From Verrucomicrobiia bacterium (GTDB lineage: Bacteria > Verrucomicrobiota > Verrucomicrobiia > Limisphaerales > DASXHY01), in assembly GCA_035629175.1 (NCBI GenBank), contig DASPIL010000107.1, positions 62,001-126,000 on the forward strand: DNA of 64,000 bases, given 5' to 3'. The notes under the pieces were generated by a model. It had not been told where the DNA came from. It searched no databases and saw only the letters and a list, made by a program, of their open reading frames with translations. Numbering within the stretch: position 1 is the stretch's first letter; every line of letters starts with the position of its first letter. Shown here piece by piece: positions 17,336 through 46,636 of this stretch. A program made the translations under genes and the position numbers.

Positions 17336-20300
17336 ATGGCGGGCCAATCGCGAATTCCTCGCCGCCACTCGTGCCATCCGGGGTTCGGCGGGATCCTGCT
17401 GGCGGTGGTGTTCATGGCTGCCATGGATGCCTGCGGCCGGAGCTTCGATGCCGCACAGGTTCCGCACGACGCGATCCCCGCCTTCACGTCTGATGACGGG
17501 GCGCTTGTGATCTCAGCCTGGGCGGACTTCACTGCCTCCGGCCCCGCCAATTTGGGTCAGGCTGGAAATTGGCTGGGTGTAACGGGAGGAAATCACAGTG
17601 CAATTGATGGCAGCGAATCTGTCACAATTCAATTTGCCACCAATGCTTCTCTGTTTCGCATCGGACATATCTGGACGCGCTCAAAGGTGATCATATCCGG
17701 ATTTGCCAGTGATCCGGGTTTTGTCGACGCGCATGGACAGGCGAAGGTCGTCAACTATCAGGATGGAACGCTGACGTATGTTCTTGGCTGGGACGCGGGT
17801 GCGGAGCGCATTGTCACGTTCACGAACCCGGGCGCTTCCGCCGGGCGCACGCTGCGCATCAACGTGCAGGACGCAATGCCGGGCTGGCAGGCGACGATCA
17901 CACGCATTGATTACGGATTGGACGGCGTGCTACCCGCAACGGTTGGCCTGCGTTCCACGGCTCAAATGATCGACAACTTCTCCGCCTCCGACGCGTGGTC
18001 GATGCAGAATGCCGGGTTGTGGTCTGATTCCAATCGCGTGCAGGTTGCCGACCTGCTGTTCACGACAAACAATGGAATCGGACTTTCCGCGTGGCGATTC
18101 AATCTCAACGCGGGATTCGATCCCGCAGTGCAACCTGGAAACCGCTGGCAACTCTGGAGAACGGGCGAAGGTTTTCTCGTGGCGTCGAACCAGTACGACT
18201 GGACGCGCCAGGCGGGGCAACGCTGGTTTTTGGCGGCCGCGAAGGAGCGGGGAATTCGGGAATTCATAGCCATGGCCTACAGCGCACCGACCAACTTCAC
18301 CCGCAACGGCCGAGTCTTTGGAACCGAAGGATTGGGTTCATCCAATCTAAAGCCCGGTTTCGAACCAGCCTTCGCACGCTATCTTGCCGACATCGTTGCG
18401 CATTTCAGAACCAACGCCGATGAGCGCGAGCGAGTCGCTTTCAATTACCTGATGCCGGTGAACGAGCCCTACTGGGATTGGAACGGCAACTCACAGGAAG
18501 GGTCCCGCTATTCGAATCCTGACATCATTGAACTCGCGCAGGCGCTCCATCCCGCGCTGCGTGCGCGCTCGCTTGATACCGAAATTCTGCTCGCAGAGGC
18601 AGGCGATTTGCCCGGGCTGTATGCCTTGCGCCAGGACATCAGCGGGAAGTATGGCGAGCCCTACGGAAATTACCTGGGCGCGTTTGATTCCATCACAAAT
18701 CTGATTTCGCACAACCTTTCCGCGCACTCCTACTTCACTGAAAACCCAACGAACCTGCTCGTCGCCGTTCGCGCCACGCTGCGTCAGCACATGGAGGCTA
18801 AGCAGCATTTTAGATTTTGGCAGACGGAGTATTGCATCCTCGGCCCGAACGGCCCTGGGCGCGACCTCACCATGACGACCGCGTTGAACGTGGCGCGCGT
18901 AGTCTGGGCAGACCTTTCAATTGCGAACGCGGCTGCCTGGCATTGGTGGCTCTCGTTGTCGCAGGCCGATTACAAGGACGGTCTGCTCTACACAGATTGG
19001 TGGCAGGCAGGAGACATTGAATCACTGTATTGCTCGAAGAATTTTTGGGCGTTCGGCCAATGGAGCAGGTTTATCCGGCCAGGTTGGAGGCGCGTGGAAA
19101 TGCCAGGATTCGAAGACGTTTTTGGGCTGATGGGCGCAGCCTTCATCGAGCCAGAGACAAACAGCGTGGCACTGGTCTTCGTCAATCACTCTAACAAGCC
19201 GTACTACGTTGCGCCTGAGGTCGGCAAAGTGGCGTTCTGGTCGGCGTGGGTGACTTCGGCCGCCACTTCAGACAACCTTTCTCCACTGCCGCCCGTTGCT
19301 GCGGAAGCAATGTGTATCATCCCGCCATCTTCAGTCGTGACCTTGGTGGGCAACGTGAGCGGAACGGCCCCACCCCATCCTGTTATCAGCGGAATCAGCG
19401 ATCTGACCATGCGGGCGGGCGAGTCGTTGACGTTCCAGGCGAATGTCGCGTGTGCGGGATTTCCTGCGGCGCTGATCAACCTGTCCGTGTTCTCCGACAA
19501 TCCTGCGCTGCTCGCCAGTTCGCGGCGGCTGATTGTGACGAATTCGATCACACGCGAATTCTATGTGAACTTCTCGGGAACGAACCTGGCGCACCTTGCT
19601 GCCGCGCCACGATTCCCAAATGAACCTCACGCACGGCATTCAATGATCAGTTTCGAGACTCCGGAAAACCTCGGCGGCGTCTACGGGACCCGGGTGCGGG
19701 GCTTTGTGGTTCCGCCTCAAGACGGCGAATACACGTTCTGGATCGCCAGCCGCGACGCGAGTGAATTGTTCCTCGGCAGCGACGAGAATCCCGCCACGAA
19801 AACACGGATTGCGTTTGTAAGTGTTGCGACGGAACCACGTCAATGGACGCAGTTGACGACGCAAGAGAGCGCGCCGATTCGGCTGCAGGCCGGGCGACGA
19901 TACTATGTCGAGGCGGTGCACGTCGGGCACTCCAGCGGAGATCATCTTGCAGTCGGGTGGAGGCTGCCTGACGGCAGAACCGAACGCCCGATCCCCGGCA
20001 AGCGCCTTTCGCCCTGGACCGATCCGTTCGCGGAAACAGCGAGTTTCAATGTGGTGCTAAGTTCCATGACGAACGCCGGTACGGCGGCAAACCTTTTCAT
20101 CGTGGCCCGTGTTCCCGGCGGGATTGCTGTGACCAATGAGGTTCGGGTGACACTGCAGCTGCCCGGCGCCATCTCACCAAACCTGCGCGCCGAGGTTGGC
20201 GATGGCGAGGTGCATCTCAGTTGGCCGCGAAAGCAACTCGGATGGGTGCTTGAAGCGCAAACGAATCCGCTGAGTGCGGGGCTTGGAAACCATTGGACTC

Positions 20301-20389
20301 CTATTGCGACGTCGTCTGTCACCAATCATTGGAGTTTGTCGATGGACTTGAATAACCCCGCTGTGTTTTACCGTCTTTCCGAACCGTGA
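17336..20389 (+). CDS. Secreted GH30-like glycoside hydrolase with PA14 domain
   Basis: This 1017-residue protein has an N-terminal hydrophobic segment (about 18-30) in a long leader, then a beta domain (about 45-195). The catalytic barrel runs from about 200 to 640 and is strongly GH30-like: TAQMIDNFSASDAWSMQNAG, GIGLSAWRFNLNAG, YDWTRQAGQRWFL. Likely catalytic residues are acid/base Glu377 in PVNEPYWDWN and nucleophile Glu498 in WQTEYC. A PA14-type carbohydrate-binding domain lies at about 780-905 (DGEYTFWIASRDASELFLG, RYYVEAVHVGHSSGDHLAVG). A C-terminal beta domain ends FYRLSEP. The pattern is closest to the GH30 group with endo-beta-1,6-galactanases, so a galactan side-chain substrate is plausible but not proven. 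The gene starts 5 bases after the DUF5107 gene, and its stop overlaps the next start by one base (TGATG). Confidence 0.8.
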   Translation: MAGQSRIPRRHSCHPGFGGILLAVVFMAAMDACGRSFDAAQVPHDAIPAFTSDDGALVISAWADFTASGPANLGQAGNWLGVTGGNHSAIDGSESVTIQFATNASLFRIGHIWTRSKVIISGFASDPGFVDAHGQAKVVNYQDGTLTYVLGWDAGAERIVTFTNPGASAGRTLRINVQDAMPGWQATITRIDYGLDGVLPATVGLRSTAQMIDNFSASDAWSMQNAGLWSDSNRVQVADLLFTTNNGIGLSAWRFNLNAGFDPAVQPGNRWQLWRTGEGFLVASNQYDWTRQAGQRWFLAAAKERGIREFIAMAYSAPTNFTRNGRVFGTEGLGSSNLKPGFEPAFARYLADIVAHFRTNADERERVAFNYLMPVNEPYWDWNGNSQEGSRYSNPDIIELAQALHPALRARSLDTEILLAEAGDLPGLYALRQDISGKYGEPYGNYLGAFDSITNLISHNLSAHSYFTENPTNLLVAVRATLRQHMEAKQHFRFWQTEYCILGPNGPGRDLTMTTALNVARVVWADLSIANAAAWHWWLSLSQADYKDGLLYTDWWQAGDIESLYCSKNFWAFGQWSRFIRPGWRRVEMPGFEDVFGLMGAAFIEPETNSVALVFVNHSNKPYYVAPEVGKVAFWSAWVTSAATSDNLSPLPPVAAEAMCIIPPSSVVTLVGNVSGTAPPHPVISGISDLTMRAGESLTFQANVACAGFPAALINLSVFSDNPALLASSRRLIVTNSITREFYVNFSGTNLAHLAAAPRFPNEPHARHSMISFETPENLGGVYGTRVRGFVVPPQDGEYTFWIASRDASELFLGSDENPATKTRIAFVSVATEPRQWTQLTTQESAPIRLQAGRRYYVEAVHVGHSSGDHLAVGWRLPDGRTERPIPGKRLSPWTDPFAETASFNVVLSSMTNAGTAANLFIVARVPGGIAVTNEVRVTLQLPGAISPNLRAEVGDGEVHLSWPRKQLGWVLEAQTNPLSAGLGNHWTPIATSSVTNHWSLSMDLNNPAVFYRLSEP

Positions 20390-21294
20390 TGACTGAACGC
20401 TCGAGCCTCGTAGCGCAGGTTTCCAAACCGGCTGTATCGCAGACGTCCCCGTCTGCCCGCGCTTGGTGCGCCCCGCGGGTCCGGAAGCCTGCGCTAGATG
20501 TTCAGTTTGCGTTGCTTGCGATTCTCTTTGCGTGCCTTTCCGGATGTTCGACGGTGGATCAGCGCGAAGCGCGGCCGTTGCGCATCCTTCCTGTCGGCGA
20601 TTCAATCACGGCTGGCTACACGGACAACCCGGCCTGGCGGACGCCGTTCGAATTCGGATATCGGGAGCCCCTTTTCCAATTACTGCGCAGCAACCGGATT
20701 GCGTTTCGATTCGTCGGCGACTCGCAGGAACCGTGGAATGGACTTTGGAAAGTTCCGACCAACTCCCCCAAGCCGGATTTGCGCTGCTTCGGCCAGGACC
20801 ATCACGAGGGTTACGGCGCGAAAGGAACCGCGTTCGTGGCGCAGCACATCGGAAGGTGGATGGAAACGCATCAACCCGACATCGTGTTGCTGATGATCGG
20901 CATCAACGACATCGCCGCGGGCTCGACAAACCCGCCCGCGGCGGCCATCACCAACCTACAGCGTATCGTGGACACCATCGCCACGATCCGTCCGCGAACG
21001 CATGTGATTGTTGCGGAAAATATTCCCTACACAAAGCCGACCCCGGCGATGGTGGAGTTGAATCGATTCATCTGTGAAACCCTGGTTCCTGCGGCGCGCG
21101 CGCAAGGACGGAATGTCAGCAGCGTGGACCACTATTCCATGATGGTCTCCGGGTCCGATCCGCTCACGGGTGATCGACGCTGGTATTCGAATGGATGGAA
21201 TCATCCAAACGCCGCCGCTTATCACCGCATGGCACAGAGTTGGTTTGAAGAAATTCGGCGCGTGGCAAAAGTGAAGGTGGAGGAGCCTCGATGA
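20389..21294 (+). CDS. SGNH/GDSL-fold hydrolase lipoprotein
   Basis: The 301-residue protein has a lipobox (LLAILFACLSGC, Cys about residue 48) and then the SGNH blocks. Block I is ILPVGDSITAGYT with the nucleophile Ser, a Gly-Asn-type block lies around LMIGINDIAAGSTNP, and the C-terminal SNGWNHPNAAAYHRMA places the catalytic His. Such enzymes are often acetyl esterases acting on decorated polysaccharides, which fits the operon. The 29 or so residues before the lipobox are unusual. They are encoded by a palindromic repeat element (20409-20497) and read as SLVAQVSKPAVSQTS-like sequence, so the signal peptide is abnormally long. No in-frame ATG exists between the element and the lipobox; ATG 20389 or GTG 20386 are the practical starts. 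Confidence 0.75.
   Translation: MTERSSLVAQVSKPAVSQTSPSARAWCAPRVRKPALDVQFALLAILFACLSGCSTVDQREARPLRILPVGDSITAGYTDNPAWRTPFEFGYREPLFQLLRSNRIAFRFVGDSQEPWNGLWKVPTNSPKPDLRCFGQDHHEGYGAKGTAFVAQHIGRWMETHQPDIVLLMIGINDIAAGSTNPPAAAITNLQRIVDTIATIRPRTHVIVAENIPYTKPTPAMVELNRFICETLVPAARAQGRNVSSVDHYSMMVSGSDPLTGDRRWYSNGWNHPNAAAYHRMAQSWFEEIRRVAKVKVEEPR
20409..20497. repeat. MITE/REP-like palindromic element inside the N-terminus of the SGNH gene
   Basis: TAGCGCAGGTTTCC (20411-20424) and GGAAGCCTGCGCTA (20483-20496) form terminal inverted repeats with one mismatch. Inside are GGTTT-CC-AAACC and a perfect stem GCAGACG/CGTCTGC (20439-20445 with 20450-20456). The sequence style matches intergenic palindromes I recall from Pedosphaera-like genomes, which appear in predicted proteins as AQVSKPAV peptides. 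Here it forms part of the coding frame ahead of a lipobox. Confidence 0.65.
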
Positions 21295-24188
21295 ACCCGG
21301 TTTCCCGCGCGGCGCTCGTGTTGATCCTCCTTGGCGCGTTTCACCTGCACGCCGGCGTTATCAACCTCGCGGGGCGATGGGAGTTCGCATTGGATTCGAA
21401 GGACGAAGGCGTGACGTCGCATTGGTGGACGGTGCCGTTTGGGGATCACATTCAACTTCCCGGAACGACAGCAATCGCGGGCAAAGGCGAGCCGCTGGAA
21501 ATCGATCTGAGGCTCGACAGAAAAAATATTGGCCAGCTTCACCCTAAGTTCTCGCACATCGGCCCGGCTTGGTATCGCCGCAGCGTCGATCTTCCGGAGT
21601 CGTGGCAGAAAAAGGACGTCCAACTCACGCTGGAACGCGTGTTGTGGGAGACGCGGGTGTGGGTAAATGGAACTGAAATCGGCAGGCAGGACAGCCTGAG
21701 CACGCCGCATCGGCACGATATTACCCGCACCATCCGCCCCGGGTCTAATGACATCGTGATTCGCGTCGACAATCGCAAGAAGATCGAGATTGGCGGCGGA
21801 CACGCGTATACGCCGGAGACGCAGACGATTTGGAATGGAATGGTTGGGGAATTGAAAGTTGAAGCGCGGGATCGCCTGCGCATCGAGCATGTCGCATTGC
21901 GACCAGACGTTGCGCGCGGCGGTGTAGAGGTTGAACTCAAGTTGCACAACGGCACAGGTAAGACGCTGAGCGCTGAGCTGGCGACGGAGGTTGTTGGGCG
22001 GAAATTTCGCGCTCGGTTTGAGGAGATCCGCGAGCGCGTAACAGTTCCGCCCGGGGTCAGCACCACGACGCGCTTTCACTCGTTGAGCCCAGCCTTCGAG
22101 CTCTGGTCAGAATTCAATCCCCGGCTCTACACGCTGCGCGCGACGCTTTCAACGTGCGAATTCGAATCGAAGCAGGAGCGTGGGTTCGGAATGCGCGCGT
22201 TCAAAGCTGAAGGACGGCAGCTGGCGGTAAACGGCAATCCGGTCTTTCTTCGTGGAACACTCGAGTGCTGCATCTTTCCTGAGACGGCGCATCCCGCAAT
22301 GACGGATTCGAAGTGGGAGACGATCTTTGAGGCAGTGAAGGAGCATGGATTGAATCACGTGCGTTTTCACTCGTGGTGTCCGCCCGAGGCGGCGTTTCGG
22401 GTGGCCGATCGCATGGGTGTCTACCTGCAGGTGGAATTGCCCAACTGGAGTTTCAAGATGGGCGAGTTGCCGGCTGCGGATGAATTTTTTCGTCAGGAAG
22501 GCGAGCGGATGCTGCGGGAGTATGGACATCATCCATCGTGGGTGATGTTCAGCATGGGGAACGAATTGCTGGGCGACCTCGAAAAGCTGGATGCATTGGT
22601 CGCAGGATTGAAGCCGCTGGATTCAACCAGGCTTTTCACAAGCACATCCTATTCGTGGAGCGCCGATGGAGCCCCGCGGGGTTTGCTTCCGGGGCCGCAG
22701 GACGATTTCTTCATTTCGATGAAAACACAGTGCGGGTGGGTGCGCGGGCAGGGATTCTTCAACGACACAAAACCGAACACGACCAATGATTATGCAGAGG
22801 GTGCCGCTTGTTTCGATGTTCCGCTGGTGAGCCATGAGGCAGGCCAATACAATATTTACCCCGACCTGCGCGACCTGCCGAAATTGAACGAGGGACCCCT
22901 GCGCGCGACAGCCTGGGAGGCGATGAAGCTGGATCTTGAGAAGAAGGGCCGCCTGGAAGAGGCCGGACGTTACGTTCGCGACTCTGGAAAACTGGCTGCG
23001 ATCCTCTACAAGGAAGAGATCGAACGGGCGCTGCGAACGAGGCATCAAGCGGGAATTCAGCTGCTGGATTTGCACGATTTCCCGGGGCAGGGCACGGCGA
23101 CGGTCGGGTTGCTCAATGCGTTTTGGCAGAGCAAGGGCATCATCAGCCCGCACGAGTTTCGACGATTCGCTGGGGCAACCGTGCCCCTGGCGCGGTTACC
23201 CAAGCGGACATTTGAGAACACGGAAACCCTGGAGTGCGCGATTGAAATCGCTCACTTCCGCGAGATGCCGATTCGGAATGTTTTGGTTGAGTGGACGCTG
23301 CGGGAAAGGAGCGGTCGACCCCGGATTTTCGGCGGTCGCCTGGTTGGCCGCGGGGAATTTCGTGTGCCTGAAATTCCGCTCGGCTCGGGAATCTCCTTGG
23401 GAAACGTTCAACAGCCGCTGAGCGCACTGGAACACGCAGCGAAGCTCACGCTGGAAGTGCGGGTGCGTGGAACCCGGATTGCGAACGATTGGTCGGTATG
23501 GGTGTATCCATCCAACGCTAGCACGGCGGGCGTTGATGACGTGCGCGTCTGCGAGGCTTTTGACGAGACCTTGTTCGCCGCTTTAGCCGACGGTGAAAAG
23601 GTGTTGTTGTTGCCGCGGCGTGCTGCGTTGAGGACGCCGGTCGATGCGCAGTTTGTCCCCATGTTTTGGAGTCCAACCGCGAACCCATCAAAGCCTGGAA
23701 CATTGGGCGCAACCATCGATGCAGCGCATCCGATCTGGAAAAACTTTCCGACGTCCACCCACACGGACTGGCAATGGTGGGAATTGTTGAGCAGTTCGTT
23801 CGCAATCGACCTGGACGGCGTTGTGCCGCGGCCAGTCACGCCGTTCGCATTCGTCGACAAGTTCAATCGCAACGCGCTGCCTGCTGGCGTCTTTGAAGTG
23901 CGCGTGGGGACGGGGCAGTTGCTGGTCTGTACCCTTGATATTACCAATGATCTCGACGCGCGAATCGTCGCGCGGCAACTCCGCAAGAGCATCTTGTCTT
24001 ACATGAACAGCCGTGACTTCAACCCGCGCACCGAGTGGACGCCTGAGATCCTTCGCACCCTCGCACGAGCACGTGCGACACAGCAGACTTGGAAGTCTGC
24101 GCCACGTGGGAACGAAACGCCCTGGAACGCGCCTCGCGCTGAGCGTCGCGCCGGCGGATTCTTTTTATACCGGTTCACATTCCTATGA
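21291..24188 (+). CDS. Secreted GH2-family beta-glycosidase
   Basis: The 965-residue enzyme begins with a signal peptide (MNPVSRAALVLILLGAFHLHAG). A GH2 jelly-roll follows (about 22-190: LAGRWEFALD, GPAWYRRSVDLPESW, LERVLWETRVWVNG), then an Ig-like domain and the catalytic barrel (about 315-620: FLRGTLECCIFPETAHP, HVRFHSWCPPEAAF). Acid/base Glu425 is in FSMGNELLGD and the candidate nucleophile Glu516 in VSHEAGQYN. GH2 enzymes include beta-galactosidases, beta-glucuronidases and beta-mannosidases; the specificity is unresolved. The N-terminal ~950 residues are clearly paralogous to the GH2 part of the 1923-residue protein. The last ~40 residues are odd: they translate a palindromic repeat (24083-24100) and lack fold-like character. 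Start and stop overlap the neighbours by 4 bases (ATGA), so translation is coupled. Confidence 0.85.
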   Translation: MNPVSRAALVLILLGAFHLHAGVINLAGRWEFALDSKDEGVTSHWWTVPFGDHIQLPGTTAIAGKGEPLEIDLRLDRKNIGQLHPKFSHIGPAWYRRSVDLPESWQKKDVQLTLERVLWETRVWVNGTEIGRQDSLSTPHRHDITRTIRPGSNDIVIRVDNRKKIEIGGGHAYTPETQTIWNGMVGELKVEARDRLRIEHVALRPDVARGGVEVELKLHNGTGKTLSAELATEVVGRKFRARFEEIRERVTVPPGVSTTTRFHSLSPAFELWSEFNPRLYTLRATLSTCEFESKQERGFGMRAFKAEGRQLAVNGNPVFLRGTLECCIFPETAHPAMTDSKWETIFEAVKEHGLNHVRFHSWCPPEAAFRVADRMGVYLQVELPNWSFKMGELPAADEFFRQEGERMLREYGHHPSWVMFSMGNELLGDLEKLDALVAGLKPLDSTRLFTSTSYSWSADGAPRGLLPGPQDDFFISMKTQCGWVRGQGFFNDTKPNTTNDYAEGAACFDVPLVSHEAGQYNIYPDLRDLPKLNEGPLRATAWEAMKLDLEKKGRLEEAGRYVRDSGKLAAILYKEEIERALRTRHQAGIQLLDLHDFPGQGTATVGLLNAFWQSKGIISPHEFRRFAGATVPLARLPKRTFENTETLECAIEIAHFREMPIRNVLVEWTLRERSGRPRIFGGRLVGRGEFRVPEIPLGSGISLGNVQQPLSALEHAAKLTLEVRVRGTRIANDWSVWVYPSNASTAGVDDVRVCEAFDETLFAALADGEKVLLLPRRAALRTPVDAQFVPMFWSPTANPSKPGTLGATIDAAHPIWKNFPTSTHTDWQWWELLSSSFAIDLDGVVPRPVTPFAFVDKFNRNALPAGVFEVRVGTGQLLVCTLDITNDLDARIVARQLRKSILSYMNSRDFNPRTEWTPEILRTLARARATQQTWKSAPRGNETPWNAPRAERRAGGFFLYRFTFL
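24083..24100. repeat. Palindromic repeat in the 3' end of the GH2 gene
   Basis: GCAGACTT and AAGTCTGC pair perfectly across a 2-base loop, flanked by GACACA and GCCACG. It is similar in style to the palindrome inside the repeat at 20409-20497 (GCAGACG/CGTCTGC). It encodes part of the terminal TQQTWKSAPRG peptide of the GH2 enzyme. This looks like an inserted repeat that replaced the original C-terminus. Confidence 0.55.
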
Positions 24189-25606
24189 TCACCACTGCTC
24201 CAAGTGAAAGTTCGAAGCTCAAGGCGGACTACCATCGCGGCTATGTCTGGTTAATCTCGTCCGTCGCCGCAATGGGCGGATTGTTGTTTGGCTGGGACTG
24301 GGTGGTGATCGGCGGCGCGAAGCCCTTTTTTCAACGCTTCTTCAACCTGACAAGCGAGGCGCAGATCGGGTGGGTGAACAGCTGCGCCTTGATCGGTTGT
24401 CTCGTCGGCGCGGTTGCCGCTGGCGCGCTCAGTGACAAGTTCGGCCGCAAGCGGCTGCTCATTCTCGCCGCCTTGCTGTTTGCGGTGACCTCGCTGGGAA
24501 ACGCCTTGGCGAATACGTTCAACATTTTTGTGTTCTGGCGGATTCTCGGTGGAGTTGCCATCGGACTGGCATCAAATCTCTCGCCGCTCTACATCGCAGA
24601 AGTCGCCCCCGCGCAGGTGCGTGGGAAACTGGTTTCGATCAATCAATTAACCATCGTCATCGGCATTCTCCTCGCCCAATACATCAACTGGTTTCTCGTT
24701 CGGAATCTTCCCGAGGGCGCAACGGATGAGTTCATTCGCAACTCGTGGTTCGGGCAGCAGGGCTGGCGCTGGATGTTTGGCCTCACGGCCGCACCGTCGC
24801 TCCTGTTTTTGCTCGGGATGTTCTTCGTGCCGGAAAGTCCGCGCTGGCTGGCGAAGATCGGGAACGATGAACGCGCGCGCGCTGTTCTCAGGAAAATCGG
24901 AGGCGCTCGGTACGCGGCGGCAGCATCTGACGAAATCCAGTCATCGCTCGCAAGCGAACAGGTTGAGCGGGTCCGGTTTTCCGAACTGCTCGCCCCGCGC
25001 ATGCGCAACGTGCTAATACTCGGCATCGTTCTCGCCGTCTTCCAGCAATGGTGCGGCATCAACGTCATCTTCAACTATGCGGAGGAAATATTCCGCGCCG
25101 CCGGTTACGACATCTCGAGCGTGCTGAAGAACATCGCCTGGACGGGATCCGTAAACCTGGCGTTCACGTTCGTCGCGCTCGGCGTGGTCGACCGCGGAGG
25201 ACGCCGTCCGCTCATGCTTCTTGGCTCAGCCGGCCTTGCGTTGATCTACATCGCGATGGGCTTCTGTTATCACAATGAAGTCAAAGGTCTCCCCATGCTG
25301 CTGCTCGTCCTTGCGGCCATTGGCTGTTATGCGATGTCGCTCGCTCCCGTGACCTGGGTGGTGATTTCCGAGATATTCCCGAACCGGATCCGCGGCGCCG
25401 CCATGGCAGTTGCAGTGACGTCGCTCTGGATCGCCTGCTTCATTCTCACCTACACGTTCCCGATCCTGAACGCGAAGATGGGTTCGGCAGGAACCTTCTG
25501 GCTCTACGCGGCGATCTGCATCGCGGGCTTTTTCTTCATCAAGTTCAAGCTCCCCGAAACCAAGGGAAAGACGCTGGAACAAATTGAAAAAGATTTGGTG
25601 GATTAA
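24185..25606 (+). CDS. MFS sugar porter (sugar:H+ symporter type)
   Basis: The 473-residue protein has about twelve hydrophobic helices and the sugar-porter family signatures. These are GALSDKFGRKRLLI after helix 2, GGVAIGLASNLSPLYIAEVA, PESPRWLAKIG after helix 6, the VVDRGGRRPLML repeat loop, and the late KLPETKGKTLEQIE. It is closest in pattern to XylE/GalP/AraE proteins that import a monosaccharide with protons; the substrate is not readable. It sits between two GH2-containing genes and overlaps the upstream one by 4 bases (ATGA), so it most likely imports the monosaccharide released by those enzymes. It is the only transporter in the operon. Confidence 0.9.
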   Translation: MITTAPSESSKLKADYHRGYVWLISSVAAMGGLLFGWDWVVIGGAKPFFQRFFNLTSEAQIGWVNSCALIGCLVGAVAAGALSDKFGRKRLLILAALLFAVTSLGNALANTFNIFVFWRILGGVAIGLASNLSPLYIAEVAPAQVRGKLVSINQLTIVIGILLAQYINWFLVRNLPEGATDEFIRNSWFGQQGWRWMFGLTAAPSLLFLLGMFFVPESPRWLAKIGNDERARAVLRKIGGARYAAAASDEIQSSLASEQVERVRFSELLAPRMRNVLILGIVLAVFQQWCGINVIFNYAEEIFRAAGYDISSVLKNIAWTGSVNLAFTFVALGVVDRGGRRPLMLLGSAGLALIYIAMGFCYHNEVKGLPMLLLVLAAIGCYAMSLAPVTWVVISEIFPNRIRGAAMAVAVTSLWIACFILTYTFPILNAKMGSAGTFWLYAAICIAGFFFIKFKLPETKGKTLEQIEKDLVD

Positions 25607-25615
25607 CGAAGCACT

Positions 25616-28600
25616 ATGAGAAGAACCCTTTTCAAGGCATTCATTCTGGCCTTCGCGATGCAAGCCATCGCGGATGAACGACCCGTAACGCTCGCAGGCA
25701 CTTGGCGATTTCAGCTGGATCGCTCTGACGCTGGAATCGCGCAGCGCTGGTTCGAACGCGCATTGCCGGATCGGGTGAAGTTGCCAGGCGATCTCAGCCA
25801 GCAGGGAATTGGAGATGCGCCGGGCCTGGAAACCAAATGGATCGGGGGCGTGCAGAAACCCGACTGGTTCAAGGACCCGGCGCTGGCGCCTTACAGCAAG
25901 CCCGGTAACTTCAAGTTCCCGTACTGGCTGACCCCCGAGACGCATTATGCCGGTGCGGCGTGGTACCAGCGCGACATCGAGATTCCACGGGAATGGGAAT
26001 CGCAGCGCGTCGTGCTCACGCTGGAACGGCCGCATTGGGAGACGCGCGTGTGGATTGATGGACGCCTGATCGGCACCAACAATGCGCTGGGAACACCGCA
26101 CGAGTTTGACCTCGGGCAGGTGGCGCCGGGCAAACATACGCTGACCATTCGCGTGGACAACCGGATGATCATCGACGTGGGGGAGAACTCCCACAGCGTC
26201 AGCGATCACACACAGGGCAATTGGAACGGCATCGTCGGCCGGCTGGAGCTTCGCGCAACGCCACTCGTTTGGATTGATGAGGTTGGAACAGTTCCGCAAC
26301 GAACAAATCGTTCCGTTCGCGTGCAGGGCTTGCTGGGAAACAGCAGCAAAAAGCCGGGGCAGGGCAGCGTGACGTTGTCAGTCCGCGAGAAAGGCCACAG
26401 GCGTGCCATTGCCTCGGCGCAGGTGAACGCCACCTGGACTGAGCGCGGCGGAAGCTTCGAAGGGGAACTCGCGTTGGGCAATTCGGCCGAAGCGTGGGAT
26501 GAATTCAATTCCAAGGTCTACACCGTCAGCGCGAGCTTGAATGTTTCCGGCGCATTGCCCGATACACCACGGCACGAGCGGGAAACCGTGGTAGGTTTTC
26601 GCGACATCGGAATCGACGGAACCCAGTTCACCATTAACGGTCGCAAGCTGTTCTTCCGCGGCACACTCGAGTGCGCCATTTTTCCGAAGACAGGTCATCC
26701 GCCAACGGATCTTGGATCGTGGAAACGGATCATGGACGTCTGCCGCGCGCATGGACTGAACATGATCCGGTTTCACTCCTGGTGCCCGCCCGAAGCTGCC
26801 TTTCACGCTGCCGACGACGCTGGCATGTACCTGCAGGTGGAGTGTTCCTCGTGGGCAAACCAGTCGACCACCCTTGGGGACGGAAGACCTGTTGATGCCT
26901 GGATCTATCAGGAAGCCGATCGCATCCTGAAGCACTACGGGAATCATCCGAGCTTCGTGCTGATGCTCTACGGCAACGAGCCCGGCGGACCGAAGCAGAA
27001 TGAATATCTCGACAAGTGGGTGAAGCATTATCGCGCGCTGGATCCGCGGCGGCTCTACAGCAGCGGCGCGGGGTGGCCGCAGATCGATGCGAACCAGTTT
27101 CACGTCACGCCCGATCCGCGCATTCAGCTCTGGGGCCAGGGCTTGAAATCGCGGATCAACGGCAAGCCGCCAGAGACCACGACCGATTACCGCGATTACA
27201 TCAACAGACGCAAGGTGCCGGTCATCAGCCATGAAATCGGCCAGTGGTGCGTCTACCCCAACCTTGATGAGATTCCGAAGTACACGGGTTATCTGAAGGC
27301 GCGAAACTTCGAAATTTTTCGCGCGAGCCTGGAGGCGAATCACATGCTGGACCAGGCGCGCGACTTCCTGCTCGCTTCGGGCAAGCTCCAGGCGTTGTGC
27401 TACAAGGAGGACATTGAAGCCGCCTTGCGCACGCCAGGCATGGGCGGCTTTCAATTGCTGGACCTGCACGACTTTCCCGGGCAGGGCACCGCGCTCGTTG
27501 GCGTGCTCGATCCGTTCTGGGAGGAAAAGGGTTACATCTCACCCGACGAGTACAGACGCTACTGCGACAGTACCGTTCCGCTGGCGCGCCTCTCGCGCCG
27601 CGTGTTCACGACTGAGGAAGCCTTGGAGGCTGACTTGGAGGTGGCTCATTTCGGAGCAGCACCGATGCAGGCGGTGACTCGATGGAAGCTCGTCGGCCAA
27701 CGCCAAAAGGTGCTCGCGAGCGGTGCATTGCCGGCGCGGCGCATCAATGTCGACAACGCGATTGCCCTGCGCCGAATCCGCGTGCCGCTCGATGACGTCA
27801 GCGGTCCTCAACAGTGTCGCCTGGTTGTTTCCATCGATGGAACAATCGTGACAAGCGAGGGCGCACGGCGCCGGTCCGAGCGGGTGTCTGCTGAGAATGG
27901 TTGGGACCTTTGGGTTTATCCACGACACGTCAACACCGAGCCCGCTTCGGACATCATGATCGTCGAGGAGATGAACAGGGCGGCGTTGGGAGCGCTTGAG
28001 GCGGGCGGCAAGGTGCTGCTGATGATTCCACCGTCGCGTGTGAAGAATGCGGACACCAACAAGGTCGCGCTCGGCTTCTCGAGCATTTTTTGGAACACCG
28101 CGTGGACGCATCGCCAGGCGCCTACAACGCTCGGCATTCTTTGCGATCCAAAACATCCGGCGCTGGCTGAGTTCCCCACCGATTTTCACAGCAACTGGCA
28201 ATGGTGGTACCTCATCAACCGCGCGGGGGCGATGATCCTCGACGACATGCCCGCGGCGCTGCGGCCCACTGTGCAAGTGATTGATGACTGGGTGACGAAC
28301 CATCGGCTGGCGTTGCTGTTCGAGGCAAAGGTCAGTGGCGGGAACCTGATGGTCTGCAGCGTGGATTTGAAGAACGAACTGGAAACGGATCCCGTGCGGC
28401 GCCAGTTCCGCCACAGCGTTCTCAATTACATGTCGGGCAGCCGCTTTAATCCACGGGTGCCGCTCACACCCAGCCAGGTGCGAAGCCTGGTAAGCACGGC
28501 GCCGGAAGTGAAAGGGCTGGATGTGCGCGCGGCCGAATCGTCGAGCGAGGAGACCGGATACGAAGCCTCCAATGCGGTTGATGCTGATCCCAACACTCTG

Positions 28601-31387
28601 TGGCACACTGCCTGGACCCCTGAACCAAAGCGCCATCCGCACGAACTGAAGATTCAATTCAACTCAGCGCGTGAATTTAGCGGGGTGACGATCCTGCCAC
28701 GCCAGGATGGGCCGCGAAACGGCTGGATCAGGGAGTTTGTGGTTTACGCCAGCAATGACGGTTCAATCTGGGGTGAGCCGGTCGCGAAAGGCAGCTTTGC
28801 GCAAGACGCGAAGCTCAAGTCCGTTTCATTTGACCGCACAATCAACGCGAAGTTTGTGCGGTTCGTTGCGCTGTCGGGATTTGGGTCGGATCCGCACGCA
28901 TCGATGGCAGAGTTCTCATTGGTGGACGAAGGGGCGAGGGCAGAAATGCGCGATGAACGTGGGATTCCGATTCGGCAGGTGCGGGGATCGGTGTTTGAAC
29001 CAGCAGCCAATCAAGCCATTCCGATCACGGTTGATGGCCGAAGCGGAGGATTAGTCTTCGATGGAGTGGGCGCTGTGAGCGCGGGCGGGTCTTCGCGGTT
29101 GTTGATCGATTATCCCGAACCGCAGCGCAGTGAAATTCTAGATTACCTGTTCAAGCCGAACTATGGTGCGGCGTTGCAAATCCTTAAGGTGGAGATTGGC
29201 GCCGACAGCGACACGACTGCTGGTGCGGAACCCAGTCACGAACGCGAACCGGGCAGCATCAATTGCGGTCGCGGTTATGAATGGTGGTTGATCAAAGAGG
29301 CCAAGGCGCGCAACCCGGCAATCAAATTAGCGGCACTCGCGTGGGGCTCGGCTGGCTGGGTGAATGGCGGGTTCTGGTCGGATGACAACATTCAATACAC
29401 GCTGAACTGGCTTGGATGTGCTGCGTTGAACGGCTATCGCGTTGATTACCTCGGCGGAGGGAATGAGCGCGGCTGGGATGCCGAATATTACATCAGGCTC
29501 GCCGCCGCCTTGAAGCAAAACGGCTTCGGCCACGTGAAAGTGATTGCGAGCGATGACCACAACCCTCCGAACTACTGGAGTGTCGCGACCGCGATGAAGA
29601 ACAATCCCGCGTTTGCCAGCGCGGTGGATGTCGTGGGGCAGCACGATGTCTGCGGCTGGCGGACATTGCAGCGGCATTGCAGCGTGAGTTCCGATGCCCT
29701 CGAACTGAGCAAGCCGCTTTGGGACAGCGAGAACAGCACGCAGGATTATCTCGTTGGCGCGGAGCCGTTGGCGAGGGTGATGACGCGGCACTATCTCGAT
29801 GCGGGGGTGACGGCGAATCTTAACTGGGCGCTTGTCTCATCAATGTATTCCAGTTTTCCATGTGCCGGCACCGGACTGATGCTCGCTGACCGCCCGTGGT
29901 CGGGCTATTACGACGTCGGCAAAATCATCTGGGTTGACGCCCATCTCACGCAATTCACCGAACCCGGCTGGCGTTATCTTGACTCCGCCTGCGGCTACAG
30001 CCAGGGCGGCGCGAGCTTCACTACACTACGATCCCCCGTTTCAGGTGATTACACGATGTTTATCGAGACACTCGATCAATCGCGCAGTGAGACCTGGGAC
30101 GTTTCGATCGAGGGTGGACTCTCAACGCACCCTGTGCAGCTATGGTCAACAGCGATGCGCTCGGCGGATGCTTCGCGGGACTTTGTGCATGTCGGTTCGA
30201 TCGAGCCGAAGAACGGTCGCTATCAGGTGAAGCTGGAGCCTGGCCACGTGTACACAATTTCCACACTGACAGGTCAGGGCAAAGGAGATGCGCGTCCAAC
30301 CGCCAGCGGCGTCGCGCAGATGCCGCTGCCGTTCAGGGAAGACTTCGAAGCCGTTGATGTTGGCCGATTTGCAAAATATTTTTCGGATGTGCACGGCGCG
30401 TTTGAAATTGCTCCTGCTTCAGCCAATCACGGAGGCAAGGTCTATCGCCAGGTCGTATCGCGGGAGCCCGTGATCTGGCATCGCACGAAAATGCAGCCGA
30501 CCACGATCGTGGGCGACCCGCGATGGTGGGGTGATTACGAAGTGAGCGCGGATGCTTTGCTGGAGGGCAAGGGATCCCTGGCGTTGCTGGGCCGCGTTGA
30601 ATCGCAGCAGCACAGTGCCGCGGGATATCATCTGCAGTTCGCCGATTCAGGAGAATGGAAGCTTCTTTCGCAGGACATCCGAGGCGTGGACACGATTCTC
30701 GCATCGGGCACAAATAATTCCTTCGGTGTCAACAAGTGGCATCGGCTCGCGTTGCGTTTTGAAGGCGCGACAATCACTGCGACTCTTGATGGCGCAGTGA
30801 TGGCCCGGGTTAAAGATGACAGCCACACCATGGGCCAGGTGGGGTTTCGAGTCAGTCCCTGGCAGCATGCGCAATTTGATAATCTTCGCGTTGTTCCCAC
30901 CCGTCCTGCGCCGCAACTGCTTGCGCGTTCTGAGATGAAGGCGGTGGCGACGAGTGAGCATGCGATGAACGATCACGGCATGATCCACATTGCGGCCAAT
31001 GCCATCGACGATCGGCTGGAAACCACGTGGCGCTCGGAGTATTCACCCATTGCGCCACTGCCACAATCCGTGACTGTGGATCTTGGGTGCGAACACGCCG
31101 TTCAGGGTCTCATCCATCACCCCCCCATCGCAGGGTTGAGCGATGCAGCCGGCTGCATCACGGAATACAATGTGTACCTCAGCGCGGATGGATCGAATTT
31201 CGGCAAGGTAGCCTCTGGACGGTGGCGCCCCGGCATTGCCGCGCGAACCGCAGCATGGCCCAGCGCGTCCGCGCGATTCGTTAGGCTCGAGGCAACTGCA
31301 AGTTCATCGGGTTCGGCTGTTGCAGTGAGTGAGTTGGATGTCATTGCTTCGTCATCGACCGGATCGTCGAACACGGCGCAACGGTGA
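25616..31387 (+). CDS. Fusion enzyme: GH2 - F5/8C - GH59 galactocerebrosidase-like - F5/8C
   Basis: This 1923-residue secreted protein (signal about 1-21) carries two complete catalytic units. Residues about 22-960 are GH2, paralogous to the upstream GH2, with acid/base Glu455 (MLYGNEPGG) and candidate nucleophile Glu540 (VISHEIGQW). A discoidin-type F5/8C domain follows (about 965-1103). Residues about 1120-1760 match GH59 (GALC): VFDGVGAVSAGGSSRLLIDY, EILDYLFKPNYGAALQILKV, GRGYEWWLIKEAKARNP, and acid/base Glu1284 in GGGNERGWD. The nucleophile is Glu1372 in LWDSENST. The GALC-like lectin end is also present (AQFDNLRV). A second F5/8C domain fills about 1765-1910. GH59 enzymes remove beta-galactose. 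The gene begins 9 bases after the MFS stop; the downstream gene starts 13 bases after its stop. No frameshift joins the parts. Confidence 0.88.
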   Translation: MRRTLFKAFILAFAMQAIADERPVTLAGTWRFQLDRSDAGIAQRWFERALPDRVKLPGDLSQQGIGDAPGLETKWIGGVQKPDWFKDPALAPYSKPGNFKFPYWLTPETHYAGAAWYQRDIEIPREWESQRVVLTLERPHWETRVWIDGRLIGTNNALGTPHEFDLGQVAPGKHTLTIRVDNRMIIDVGENSHSVSDHTQGNWNGIVGRLELRATPLVWIDEVGTVPQRTNRSVRVQGLLGNSSKKPGQGSVTLSVREKGHRRAIASAQVNATWTERGGSFEGELALGNSAEAWDEFNSKVYTVSASLNVSGALPDTPRHERETVVGFRDIGIDGTQFTINGRKLFFRGTLECAIFPKTGHPPTDLGSWKRIMDVCRAHGLNMIRFHSWCPPEAAFHAADDAGMYLQVECSSWANQSTTLGDGRPVDAWIYQEADRILKHYGNHPSFVLMLYGNEPGGPKQNEYLDKWVKHYRALDPRRLYSSGAGWPQIDANQFHVTPDPRIQLWGQGLKSRINGKPPETTTDYRDYINRRKVPVISHEIGQWCVYPNLDEIPKYTGYLKARNFEIFRASLEANHMLDQARDFLLASGKLQALCYKEDIEAALRTPGMGGFQLLDLHDFPGQGTALVGVLDPFWEEKGYISPDEYRRYCDSTVPLARLSRRVFTTEEALEADLEVAHFGAAPMQAVTRWKLVGQRQKVLASGALPARRINVDNAIALRRIRVPLDDVSGPQQCRLVVSIDGTIVTSEGARRRSERVSAENGWDLWVYPRHVNTEPASDIMIVEEMNRAALGALEAGGKVLLMIPPSRVKNADTNKVALGFSSIFWNTAWTHRQAPTTLGILCDPKHPALAEFPTDFHSNWQWWYLINRAGAMILDDMPAALRPTVQVIDDWVTNHRLALLFEAKVSGGNLMVCSVDLKNELETDPVRRQFRHSVLNYMSGSRFNPRVPLTPSQVRSLVSTAPEVKGLDVRAAESSSEETGYEASNAVDADPNTLWHTAWTPEPKRHPHELKIQFNSAREFSGVTILPRQDGPRNGWIREFVVYASNDGSIWGEPVAKGSFAQDAKLKSVSFDRTINAKFVRFVALSGFGSDPHASMAEFSLVDEGARAEMRDERGIPIRQVRGSVFEPAANQAIPITVDGRSGGLVFDGVGAVSAGGSSRLLIDYPEPQRSEILDYLFKPNYGAALQILKVEIGADSDTTAGAEPSHEREPGSINCGRGYEWWLIKEAKARNPAIKLAALAWGSAGWVNGGFWSDDNIQYTLNWLGCAALNGYRVDYLGGGNERGWDAEYYIRLAAALKQNGFGHVKVIASDDHNPPNYWSVATAMKNNPAFASAVDVVGQHDVCGWRTLQRHCSVSSDALELSKPLWDSENSTQDYLVGAEPLARVMTRHYLDAGVTANLNWALVSSMYSSFPCAGTGLMLADRPWSGYYDVGKIIWVDAHLTQFTEPGWRYLDSACGYSQGGASFTTLRSPVSGDYTMFIETLDQSRSETWDVSIEGGLSTHPVQLWSTAMRSADASRDFVHVGSIEPKNGRYQVKLEPGHVYTISTLTGQGKGDARPTASGVAQMPLPFREDFEAVDVGRFAKYFSDVHGAFEIAPASANHGGKVYRQVVSREPVIWHRTKMQPTTIVGDPRWWGDYEVSADALLEGKGSLALLGRVESQQHSAAGYHLQFADSGEWKLLSQDIRGVDTILASGTNNSFGVNKWHRLALRFEGATITATLDGAVMARVKDDSHTMGQVGFRVSPWQHAQFDNLRVVPTRPAPQLLARSEMKAVATSEHAMNDHGMIHIAANAIDDRLETTWRSEYSPIAPLPQSVTVDLGCEHAVQGLIHHPPIAGLSDAAGCITEYNVYLSADGSNFGKVASGRWRPGIAARTAAWPSASARFVRLEATASSSGSAVAVSELDVIASSSTGSSNTAQR

Positions 31388-31400
31388 GGGCAAGACTTCG

Positions 31401-34400
31401 ATGATGGACAAGAATCAGCGCCGGAACGGGATGCAGAGGATCGCGCTGGGTGGGTTTGCGGGGCTGCTGTGTCTCACCGCCTGTTCTGTTCCGGCGCCGC
31501 AGCCTCTCGCGTCGAGTGCACCTCTCGCATGCGAACCTGCGAACGTGTTGGCGATGATGGAGCATGTGGCTGACTGGCAGCTCGCACACCCGGCGCGTTA
31601 TCGAACGACCGACTGGACGCAAGGGGCGCTGTACGCAGGAATGATGGCTCTCGACGGAATCTCTCCCAGTCCGCGCTTTCGTGAAGCCATGCAGCGGGTG
31701 GGTGCCACCAATCAATGGAAGCTTGGTGCGTGGCATTACAATGCCGACGACCACTGCGTCGGCCAGATGTATGCGGAGATGGCGATGCGGCTGGAGGATT
31801 CCACAATCATCGGCCCGATGCGCGCGCAGTTCGACTCGATCCTGGAGAAGCCTTCGCCCGTTGCGCTGCTCGATTTCAGACGACGCGAAGCGGGGGACAG
31901 ATGGTCCTGGTGTGATGCGTTGTTCATGGCGCCGCCCGCATGGACGCGCCTCTGGTCAGCCACCGGAGATCGACGATATCTCGACTATGCCGTTTCAAAC
32001 TGGTGGATCACGTCAGAGTTTCTTTACGACGACGTCGAGCATCTCTTCTACCGCGACAGCACTTACTTCAATCGCATCGAGGCCAACGGTAAACGCGTGT
32101 TCTGGGGCCGTGGGAACGGCTGGGTGATGGGCGGCCTTGTTCGGGTGATCCAGGATCTGCCGGCGGATCATCCCGAACGCGAACGGTTCCTCCGGCAGTT
32201 CCGCGATATGTCGGCGAAGATACTTCAATGCCAGCAGCCGGATGGGCTGTGGCGATCGAGCCTGCTGGATCCTGAGAGCTATCCGCTGAAGGAAACCAGC
32301 GGCTCGGGGTTCAACACCTACGCCGTAGCGTGGGGAGTCAATGAAGGGGTGCTGGACCGTGCGCGTTTCCAGCCGGCGGTCGACAAGGCGTGGGCTGCGC
32401 TCGTCGGATGCGTCACAGGCGAAGGCAAGCTCACCCATGTGCAACCCATTGGAGCCGATCCCAAGAAATTCGACGTGAACCACTCCGATGTGTACGGCGT
32501 CGGCGCGTTCCTTCTCGCAGGGAGCGAAGTATACCGCATGCACGGCGGTCGCGTGCTTTACACGCATCGCGCCAACGCAAAGATTTCCCATGATGGAAAC
32601 GCCGCCGCGTCAAACACAGCCGCAGCAGCGCAATTCCAAAGGGTGGTGGAACGTTATCGTCAGGTCATCCTGCGAAACGATCCGGATTGGTCGCAGGAGA
32701 AAACGACAGCGGCGCAGCCGACGCAATCCGCGAAATGGATTGAATCGCTCGGCGCCGATGGCACATGGCCGGATATCGATTACGCGAATCAGGAACGGGC
32801 ATTCTGGAAAACCTGCATGCATCTCGATCGCGTTCGATCCCTCGCCAGGGCGCTTGTGGATCCACAACACTCGCTGCATCAACACCCGGAACTCGAATCG
32901 GCAGTGTTCCGCGCGCTGGATTTTTGGCTCGCGAAGCGTTTCACAAACCCGAACTGGTGGTGGAACCAGATCGGCGTTCCCGCCATCATGGCAGACGTCG
33001 TGGTTCTCATGGACGAACACTTGAGCGAGCCGCAGCGCAAGGGCGCGCTCGAGGTCGTTGCGCAATCAGGACGCCCGCGCCGCGGCAGTGGCGCCAACAC
33101 CGTCTGGATCGCAGACATTTCCCTGCAATACGCCGCGCTGACTCGCAACGCGGAATTTCTCGCGGAGTGCAGTCGTATCATAGCAGGGGAGATCAACATC
33201 ACGACCCAGGATGGCATTCAGTCCGACTACAGCTTCCATCAGCATTACCAGCGATTGCAGCAGTTCTCGTACGGCCGTCCTTACCTCGTGACGGGCACGC
33301 GCGTGGCCTGGCAGTTGCAGGGTACGCCGTGGGAGATTGCGGAAGAAAAGGCCGGCATCCTTGCAGGCCTGGCGCTGGAAGGAGATCAATGGATGTCTCG
33401 CGGGATTTATACCGTTCCGTCCGTTCTCGACCGCAGCGTGAGCCGGCCAGGCACGCTGAAGTGGGCCGATATTCGGACAACGTTGAAACAGCTGCGCGAC
33501 CTGGTTCCCCAACGCAGCGTTGAACTGAACCGGTATGTTGCGCGGCAGAACGACGTTCGGCGGGAGCCGTTGGTTGGCGCCCGGAATTTTCCAAGGTCCG
33601 ACTTCGTTGCATATCATCGACCCCGGTTTTCGTTTTTTGTGAAGACACTTTCGTCGCGAACATTTACGACGGAGGTTGGATTGAACAGTGAGCATCTGAA
33701 GGGTGGGCTGCAGAATTGCGGCGACCACTACCTGATGAGGGAAGGTGACGAGTATTTCGATCTTGCGCCTGTCTGGGATTGGAATCGATTACCCGGAGTC
33801 ACGTACGCCGAAGGTGCGGGAGTGCCCCAGCGCGACGACTTTGTGGGCGCGGTCACGGATCAGGCGAGCTGCGCGATTGCGATGAACACCCGCTTTGGCA
33901 CGACCAACGAAACCAGGTTGAGCGCGAGAAAATTCTGGGCGTGCCATGGCGACATTGTGGTTTCGCTCGTCGCGGGATTGAAGGCAGACGCTTCCATCGG
34001 AGCCGTTCGGACTGCGATGGACCAAAGCCATCTGCGCGGACCTGTCACGCTTTGTGACTCCAACGGCAGGGTTCGCGAAGTGCAAGGCTCAGCCGAGGGA
34101 ACGAACGCGCGCTGGATTCATCATGCCGGGTTCGTTTATGTGCCGATCGCGGAAAATGCCAGCGTGGAAACAGGAGTTCGGGAAGGCTCATGGCGATCCA
34201 TCAATGCTGCGTTGCCGGACGATCGGGTGAGTGCCCCGGTTTTTTTGCCGTCCATTGAACACGACACGCGTGCATCTTCCAAAGGCTCGGGCTTCGTGAT
34301 CGCGCCGGGTACCGCTGCAGAAGCACGCAAGCTGTTCAAGAATCCTCCATGGCGTGTGCTGCGCAATGACGAAGCAGTTCAGGCCGTCCAGTTCGATGAC

Positions 34401-34709
34401 GGAGCGATTCTCGCGGCAATCTATCAAGCGAACGAAATCGTTTCTGATCTGAGGGTTGACCGAGCCTGCCTGGTCTTGCAGCGCGGAAATCGAATCTGGA
34501 TCGCTGATCCTGCGCAGCGTGGTGGCTGGGTGACAGCGACAATCAAAGGGAAAACGCGACGGGGTGTGCTGCGTCCCGGCGGTTTCACGGCCGAACTCCT
34601 TGAGCCTCCAACCCGCTCTTTGACTGCGGTCGAAGTTTCTACCCTGCCTTCGCGATCCACGTTCCGCCGCTTTGGAAGCGCGGCGATACGGTCCCGGCTC
34701 GCCGAGTGA
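31401..34709 (+). CDS. Fusion lipoprotein: GH105 unsaturated uronyl hydrolase - PL8 polysaccharide lyase
   Basis: The 1102-residue protein has a lipobox (GLLCLTAC), which supports the Met at 31401. Upstream in-frame codons overlap the previous gene and lack a signal. Residues about 45-385 are GH105: TQGALYAGMMALDG, DDHCVGQMYAEMA and RWSWCDALFMAPPAW with catalytic Asp172, then GRGNGWVMGGL. Residues about 415-1090 are polysaccharide lyase family 8: NPNWWWNQIGVPAIM, then GANTVW with Asn566, and DYSFHQHYQRLQQFSYGRPY with His615 and Tyr624. The His-to-Tyr spacing of nine equals that of characterised PL8 lyases. PL8 cleaves uronate-containing chains by beta-elimination, leaving an unsaturated uronate that GH105 removes, so the fusion couples consecutive steps. 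It is the last gene of the carbohydrate operon. Confidence 0.87.
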   Translation: MMDKNQRRNGMQRIALGGFAGLLCLTACSVPAPQPLASSAPLACEPANVLAMMEHVADWQLAHPARYRTTDWTQGALYAGMMALDGISPSPRFREAMQRVGATNQWKLGAWHYNADDHCVGQMYAEMAMRLEDSTIIGPMRAQFDSILEKPSPVALLDFRRREAGDRWSWCDALFMAPPAWTRLWSATGDRRYLDYAVSNWWITSEFLYDDVEHLFYRDSTYFNRIEANGKRVFWGRGNGWVMGGLVRVIQDLPADHPERERFLRQFRDMSAKILQCQQPDGLWRSSLLDPESYPLKETSGSGFNTYAVAWGVNEGVLDRARFQPAVDKAWAALVGCVTGEGKLTHVQPIGADPKKFDVNHSDVYGVGAFLLAGSEVYRMHGGRVLYTHRANAKISHDGNAAASNTAAAAQFQRVVERYRQVILRNDPDWSQEKTTAAQPTQSAKWIESLGADGTWPDIDYANQERAFWKTCMHLDRVRSLARALVDPQHSLHQHPELESAVFRALDFWLAKRFTNPNWWWNQIGVPAIMADVVVLMDEHLSEPQRKGALEVVAQSGRPRRGSGANTVWIADISLQYAALTRNAEFLAECSRIIAGEINITTQDGIQSDYSFHQHYQRLQQFSYGRPYLVTGTRVAWQLQGTPWEIAEEKAGILAGLALEGDQWMSRGIYTVPSVLDRSVSRPGTLKWADIRTTLKQLRDLVPQRSVELNRYVARQNDVRREPLVGARNFPRSDFVAYHRPRFSFFVKTLSSRTFTTEVGLNSEHLKGGLQNCGDHYLMREGDEYFDLAPVWDWNRLPGVTYAEGAGVPQRDDFVGAVTDQASCAIAMNTRFGTTNETRLSARKFWACHGDIVVSLVAGLKADASIGAVRTAMDQSHLRGPVTLCDSNGRVREVQGSAEGTNARWIHHAGFVYVPIAENASVETGVREGSWRSINAALPDDRVSAPVFLPSIEHDTRASSKGSGFVIAPGTAAEARKLFKNPPWRVLRNDEAVQAVQFDDGAILAAIYQANEIVSDLRVDRACLVLQRGNRIWIADPAQRGGWVTATIKGKTRRGVLRPGGFTAELLEPPTRSLTAVEVSTLPSRSTFRRFGSAAIRSRLAE

Positions 34710-42977: not shown

Positions 42978-43063
42978 TGGATGGATCGTTTGAGGTTTCG
43001 CGCAGTTAAACTGATCGGCGAACGCTCCTGCGCGTAAGCAGTGCCGAAATGATGAAATGATTC

Positions 43064-46147: not shown

Positions 46148-46636
46148 ACGAAACTTCTCTGGACCGATCGCCCCCGCAAACCGACCATCGGCGTTGCCCT
46201 GCCATTTCCTCTGACGAATCCGATCACGGACCCACCGCCCGACCACCAGAAAAGCTGAACGTGCTGCGTTGGGTTTCTCGTCAGTCACTGTCAGGCTGTT
46301 TTCCAGATCCGCAGGCCGGCAGGCACAATCGCGCTTCCGCTCCACGGACCAGGAGGTGGCGCCCGCATTTTTCTACGAGGCGCTGCACCTGTGACTTATC
46401 GGCGACATCCGGAGTGGCTTAACGAAAGTTCTGCAATTCAGGGCAAAAACGCCCCAATTTTGCACGTCTTTTGAGGGAGACAGCCTTAGTCTCTGGACGG
46501 GTGGGGCTTGCTATTTGCCGGACGAAAACGGATTTCGGCGCGAGAGGCTCGCGTTGAGTGGCTGGAACAAACCCGTCGCATGCGAGCCGGGATTCAGGGT
46601 TTTACCGGCGCAATTCTTCGATGCCCGGTGGGAGGG
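46148..46636. other. 489-base gene-free region upstream of the DUF2341 gene
   Basis: It lies between the stop of the transferase-like gene and the start of the DUF2341 gene, both on minus, so it should hold a terminator and a promoter. A perfect hairpin CGCGAG-AGG-CTCGCG (46539-46553) and small ones (GGGC/GCCC at 46441-46454, GAGAC/GTCTC around 46477-46493) are visible, none with a proper U tract. No convincing -35/-10 pair or small gene was found. Confidence 0.4.

Follow-up and report, generated by a model that had tools for sequence, protein, structure and literature searches.

A single open reading frame in a bacterial genome encodes a protein in which two glycosidases, one of family GH2 and one of family GH59, are joined end to end, each followed by an F5/8C (discoidin) domain. 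It was found in a stretch of 64,000 nucleotides (the window), where it forms part of an operon with other carbohydrate-active genes. The layout seems to be undescribed and to combine known enzyme families in a new way; nothing previously known is overturned by it. On balance, the product is somewhat more probably than otherwise a secreted two-site exo-β-galactosidase, which would have arisen from end-to-end joining of a GH2-F5/8C gene and a GH59-F5/8C gene and would serve the side chains of an acidic polysaccharide.

Domain Architecture

The frame starts with ATG and runs for 1,923 codons without an internal stop (Table 1). Inspection of the N-terminus revealed a typical hydrophobic stretch ending AIA-DE, and given this signal-like start the protein is predicted to be secreted. 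The protein was searched against Pfam, NCBIfam and, by sequence, the PDB. In addition, its two halves were modeled separately with AlphaFold2 from alignments of 17 rows (GH2 half) and 22 rows (GH59 half), which gave mean pLDDT values of 80 and 82, respectively. The original prediction, made from the sequence alone, was of one polypeptide carrying GH2, GH59 and two F5/8C domains; the Pfam and PDB matches within one unbroken frame agree with this, and the coordinates and operon context that it gave were borne out.

Table 1. Features of the fusion gene and its operon (positions are those of the window; aa, residues of the fusion protein).
Feature	Position	Strand	Basis
GH30_2 + PA14	17336..20389	+	domain search
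GDSL esterase-like	20386..21294	+	domain search
Second BT4151-like GH2, divergent	21291..24188	+	NF049890 771 bits
MFS sugar porter	24185..25606	+	TIGR00879 over cut-off; XylE model 404 of 608 bits
Whole gene, secreted (predicted) GH2-F5/8C-GH59-F5/8C protein, 1,923 aa	25616..31387	+	single frame; domains; L003 layout
Signal-peptide-like N-terminus MRRTLFKAFILAFAMQAIA	25616..25672	+	read directly from sequence
GH2 unit, BT4151-like, aa 20-955	25673..28480	+	NF049890, PDB 8u01, model TM 0.95
E455, GH2 acid/base	26978..26980	+	GNE motif (GNEPGG)
E540, GH2 nucleophile	27233..27235	+	SHEIGQW motif
First F5/8C (CBM32-like) domain, aa 973-1100	28532..28915	+	Pfam 6.5e-37
Linker, ~aa 1104-1141	28925..29038	+	low model confidence; frame kept in L003
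GH59 TIM-barrel catalytic domain, aa 1148-1446	29057..29953	+	PF02057; GALC fold
E1284, GH59 acid/base = GALC E182	29465..29467	+	GNERGW; mouse GALC alignment
E1372, GH59 nucleophile = GALC E258	29729..29731	+	WDSENS; mouse GALC alignment
GH59 central β-sandwich region, aa 1462-1553	29999..30274	+	PF17387; GALC fold match
GALC-type C-terminal lectin domain (GH59_C), aa 1593-1759	30392..30892	+	PF21708 2.3e-19
Second F5/8C domain, aa 1767-1910	30914..31345	+	closest to 4a41, 3e-20
GH105/GH88-PL8 fusion, lipoprotein-like	31407..34709	+	true start within longer frame 31329-34709

The GH2 Half

In the N-terminal half, the Pfam models GH2_N (PF02837; aa 26-187, 3e-15) and GH2_C (PF02836; aa 333-480, 2e-6) matched over their cut-offs. 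The NCBIfam equivalog model for the BT4151 exo-β-1,4-galactosidase, NF049890, gave 1100.7 bits over aa 11-972, below its curated cut-off of 1500, so the linkage specificity of this half is not fixed by the score. The 1500-bit cut-off was reached in none of 313 genomes of the window's order, and since the GH2 half falls under it like GH2s throughout the order, it is placed in a BT4151-related group rather than in NF049890 itself. PDB 8u01, from Phocaeicola plebeius, matched aa 24-951 with 958 bits in the sequence search, and the AlphaFold2 model superposes on it with a TM of 0.95 by target. The GH2 half resembles 8u01 and the BT4151 type in its full-length match (46% identity in the structural alignment to 8u01) and in both catalytic Glu residues, whereas its sub-cut-off score, its attached F5/8C domain and its junction to GH59 set it apart from them. 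These Glu residues, originally proposed as Glu455 and Glu540, are found at those positions and are invariant across the 17 aligned rows. BT4151 is reported to be an exo-β-1,4-galactosidase which removes galactose from RG-I oligosaccharides (PMC8002723). The GH2 half appears closest to this type, and a glucuronosidase activity, for which an assay had been proposed, is therefore the less likely option.

The GH59 Half

GALC, the relative of the GH59 half in animals, is the human Krabbe-disease enzyme. Bacterial GH59 enzymes are widespread; no characterized member was found in the open-access literature searched, in which their function is covered only by family lists and by the xyl-doc cluster described below. 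The original prediction had staked its GH59 assignment on a profile match after residue 1120, and PF02057 matches at full length from aa 1148 (model positions 1-294 of 294; 333 bits, cut-off 27; 2e-99). The central GH59M model (PF17387) is weak, with 21.6 bits against a cut-off of 28, and its region is covered by the GALC fold match. The complete GALC-type unit spans aa 1148-1759 and, as anticipated, runs through to the lectin end. Mouse GALC was matched in the PDB with 316 bits for aa 1142-1761 in the sequence search, and the model of this half superposes on it with a TM of 0.89 by target; the structure prediction that had been called for thus places the two halves on the 8u01 and mouse GALC folds.

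The predicted catalytic pair Glu1284/Glu1372 also lies where it was expected, aligned with the GALC pair, and E1372 is invariant across the 22 aligned rows, with at least 90% conservation at E1284. In GALC, galactose is contacted by G48, T93, W135, N181, S261, W524, and R380 (PMC4445328). Alignment to mouse GALC gave G1157, T1201, W1243, N1283, S1374, and W1621 as equivalents of the first six, the position of S261 being variable among bacterial GH59s, and gave no equivalent for R380. Mouse galactocerebrosidase (PDB 4ccc, 3zr5) and the GH59 half have in common the catalytic domain, β-sandwich, lectin domain, catalytic Glu pair and, by alignment, most galactose contacts. In contrast, the window protein has a bacterial host, bears an N-terminal GH2 and two F5/8C domains, and leaves the GALC insert with R380 unmatched.

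The F5/8C Domains and Linker

A discoidin domain had been predicted after each catalytic unit, and the Pfam model F5_F8_type_C matched two stretches at these places (126.9 bits), the first being the best. The first domain is closest to the N-terminal domain of galactose oxidase (2e-24) and keeps the motifs WHT, PRQD, and NGWI, a putative galactose site, which in CBM32 galactose binders comprises conserved His, Arg, and Asn. The second domain has other residues at the matching positions, as do its closest relatives. Moreover, a domain like the first also trails unfused BT4151-like GH2s, and the kind represented by the second is common to the GH59 clade of Actinomycetota among the clade members checked. 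Duplication of one F5/8C-bearing unit was ruled out, because the two domains accompany different enzymes elsewhere. These comparisons indicate that each F5/8C domain came with its own catalytic partner and is not a repeated unit. Between the first F5/8C domain and GH59, AlphaFold2 confidence is low for aa 1088-1131, as expected for a linker.

Recurrence and Rarity of the Fusion

The same four parts, in identical order and in one frame of 1,962 aa, were found in L003 (QEVI01000040.1), a metagenome-assembled genome (MAG) labeled Planctomycetota PLA4. Identity between the two proteins is 60% for GH2, 47% for the first F5/8C domain, 63% for GH59 (72% for its catalytic domain), and 44% for the last F5/8C domain, and they can be aligned through the join in frame. 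The partners in the L003 operon are only partly like those in the window; upstream it has weak matches to GH30 and to GH43. A sequencing error near base 28500-28970 had been named as a risk, and the L003 join contradicts it, since a chance error would not recur in a second assembly. Although the source is a draft genome of 108 contigs and relatives carry GH2 and GH59 genes apart, it is hardly credible that an assembly or sequencing error fused two separate genes, given the alignable fusion in L003, an open frame of 5.8 kb, and the absence at the join of an additional signal peptide such as the signal-like one of the unfused locus L197.

Outside L003 the layout was sought in several ways. In 84,980 species genomes, a scan with GH59 peptides, which requires near-exact peptides and so performs best at close relatives, yielded 73 GH59 loci, with a GH2 in the same frame only in L003. 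PF02057 searches, in which the open frame around each match was recorded, covered four phyla and somewhat over 1,500 genomes. No further GH2-GH59 fusion was found in 388 genomes of the window's phylum, 320 of its order, 343 of the L003 phylum, 277 of that of L045, or 287 of that of L056, and only the window and L003 had strong PF02057 matches in a frame of more than 1,600 aa. Among plasmids, no record covered 80% of the protein and none held both halves together; viral contigs contained no relative of it. The original prediction knew of no described protein with this layout; this stands for the databases and open-access papers searched, with the qualification that the layout recurs in L003.

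Origin of the Two Halves

A tree of 110 GH59s, from a short search and with SH-aLRT as its sole measure of support, places the window and L003 as sisters (97) inside a ten-row clade (100), which otherwise comprises Actinomycetota and one Porphyromonadaceae MAG. The remaining GH59s of the window's order are placed elsewhere in the tree, which gives no support to this GH59 as a native gene of the order. In the GH2 tree, where other phyla were hardly sampled, the GH2 half is placed among those from the window's own order, and roughly half of these have a C-terminal F5/8C domain resembling the first one. Here the sister relation of the window and L003 is without resolution when all rows are included, and gains weak support (84/90) when three distant rows are removed. 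On this weak support, a single fusion event shared by the two is put as likely. In GC content the two halves resemble each other and the neighboring genes, which gives no sign of recent arrival. The simplest history would be that two complete genes were joined, each with its own F5/8C domain: a GH2-F5/8C gene of the kind common in the window's order and a GH59-F5/8C gene of a mainly actinobacterial clade.

Further loci carry the two genes unfused. In L195 and L196, both from the window's order, and in L055 and L045, BT4151-like GH2 genes are found close to GH59 genes and share their strand. At L197:1133-4654 (minus strand) a GH2-F5/8C gene ends in two stops; past these, with no change of frame, come a signal-like peptide and the beginning of a GH59. 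The latter stops short at some 60 residues and is thus a remnant. Of the roughly 45 GH59 loci known from the order, L195 to L197 make up three. A state resembling that before the fusion is probably preserved in this relative, which would show how the fusion arose.

Operon Context and Proposed Function

The operon genes as far as the sugar porter follow each other with successive 4-base overlaps, the ATG of the fusion gene lies nine bases past the porter stop, and 19 bases separate the fusion gene from the GH105-PL8 gene. The latter encodes another two-enzyme fusion with a lipobox-like start, whose GH105/GH88 part is closest to PDB 4ce7. Further upstream are an AraC/XylR-type regulator and a relative of GH43-type arabinofuranosidases (205 bits, cut-off 500). 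In L056, from Chitinophagaceae, GH30, PL8, and GH59 genes adjoin. Gene content in the window points to an acidic polysaccharide carrying galactosyl side chains as the probable substrate. PL8 and GH105 indicate uronic-acid polymers generally, glycosaminoglycan-like ones included, so that side chains of a plant polymer are a guess for the substrate. In Ruminiclostridium cellulolyticum, GH59-1238 lies beside GH2-1239 within the xyl-doc cluster (PMC6556953). This cluster serves plant polysaccharide breakdown and pairs GH59 with GH2 as the window does, but there the two are separate enzymes of the cellulosome, equipped with CBM6 and dockerin. At the level of the families, the cluster lends independent support to the pairing of GH59 with GH2.

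From these observations a scheme can be proposed in which each half would be a retaining β-galactosidase, the two with differing linkage preferences, and would take different β-galactosyl residues in turn from the side chains of an acidic polysaccharide, for which a rhamnogalacturonan-I- or arabinogalactan-like polymer is a first guess. The first F5/8C domain probably anchors the protein on galactosyl ends, the PL8, GH105, and GH30 enzymes of the operon would break open the remainder of the polymer, and the released sugar would be imported by the MFS protein. The stepwise trimming of a mixed side chain that was originally suggested is plausible in this light. It is a real, if lesser, possibility that two exo-galactosidases for one polymer were joined for equal dosage and co-secretion, without hand-over between active sites. 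Relatives carry the two enzymes as separate genes in close proximity, the linker is poorly predicted and probably flexible, and the finding of two copies suggests a gain too weak for wide spread in the searched set. However, the join has been kept in L003 at about 60% identity and is thus long-lasting, and GH59 has undergone fusion with partner enzymes on several occasions.

Concerning the polymer, it is unlikely, though worth weighing, that it is glycosaminoglycan-like or a complex xylan instead of RG-I or arabinogalactan, with both galactosidases acting on its neighboring galactosyl links. The PL8 part most resembles chondroitinase AC (245 bits, cut-off 1000; PDB 1cb8, 197 bits), the regulator is of XylR type and the porter XylE-like, and the R. 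cellulolyticum cluster in which GH59 and GH2 adjoin is one for arabinoxylan. Against these stand the GH43-type arabinofuranosidase relative upstream and the BT4151-like character of the GH2 units; moreover, all model scores are sub-cut-off except those of Pfam and of the generic porter model. Action of the GH59 half on galactolipids, as in animal GALC, so that the protein would serve lipid-bound galactosides, is very improbable: the GALC fold and galactose-contact residues are kept, but R380 is unmatched, the set of operon genes (GH30, GH105-PL8, GH2) is one for polysaccharides, and bacterial GH59s adjoin GH2, PL8, and GH30 genes. The protein is a ready two-site enzyme for expression, and the fusion, its unfused neighbors and the parallel fusions of GH59 to other exo-enzymes provide a concrete, testable hint at the role of bacterial GH59.

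Upstream of the operon, positions 7853-12697 of the window encode a protein of 1,614 aa, which has three laminin-G-like domains besides Ig-like ones. On the minus strand, 40605-46345 holds the overlapping long frames 40605-43415 and 43064-46345, full of MBG and Ig-like repeats, which may represent a pair of similar surface proteins or a single one interrupted by a frameshift.

Other GH59 Fusions

GH59 was also found fused to GH36 (L166:3734-7771), to GH127 (L062:4663-9267), and to GH67N-like and CBM6 domains (L173:1-4341). These resemble the window protein in that one frame encodes GH59 together with another unit of glycosidase type, but differ in their partner families and GH59 clades. Some long GH59 frames elsewhere contain GH59 with F5/8C and a lamin-tail domain. 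Long GH59 frames were considered as extra GH2 fusions and rejected, since they contain GH36, GH127, GH67N-like, F5/8C, or lamin-tail domains. Joining of GH59 to another glycosidase is, as judged from these domain assignments, recurrent (GH36, GH127, GH67N-like). A wider reading, which is doubtful but deserves mention, is that in Verrucomicrobiota and their neighbors GH59 may be a side-chain galactosidase module, repeatedly paired within one chain with GH2, GH36, GH127, or GH67N-like units, each pair acting in turn on adjacent linkages within a single branched side chain. If this were true, the GH2-GH59 protein would read out the order of two adjacent galactosyl linkages in an acidic polysaccharide.

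At L172:3-4622 (minus strand), about 770 aa following GH59 gave no Pfam or NCBIfam match and could be an unclassified enzyme, and in the L014 frame the first 540 aa are without an identified domain. In another genome of the window's order, L174:3764-13339 forms a frame of 3,192 aa with two weak GH59-like stretches.
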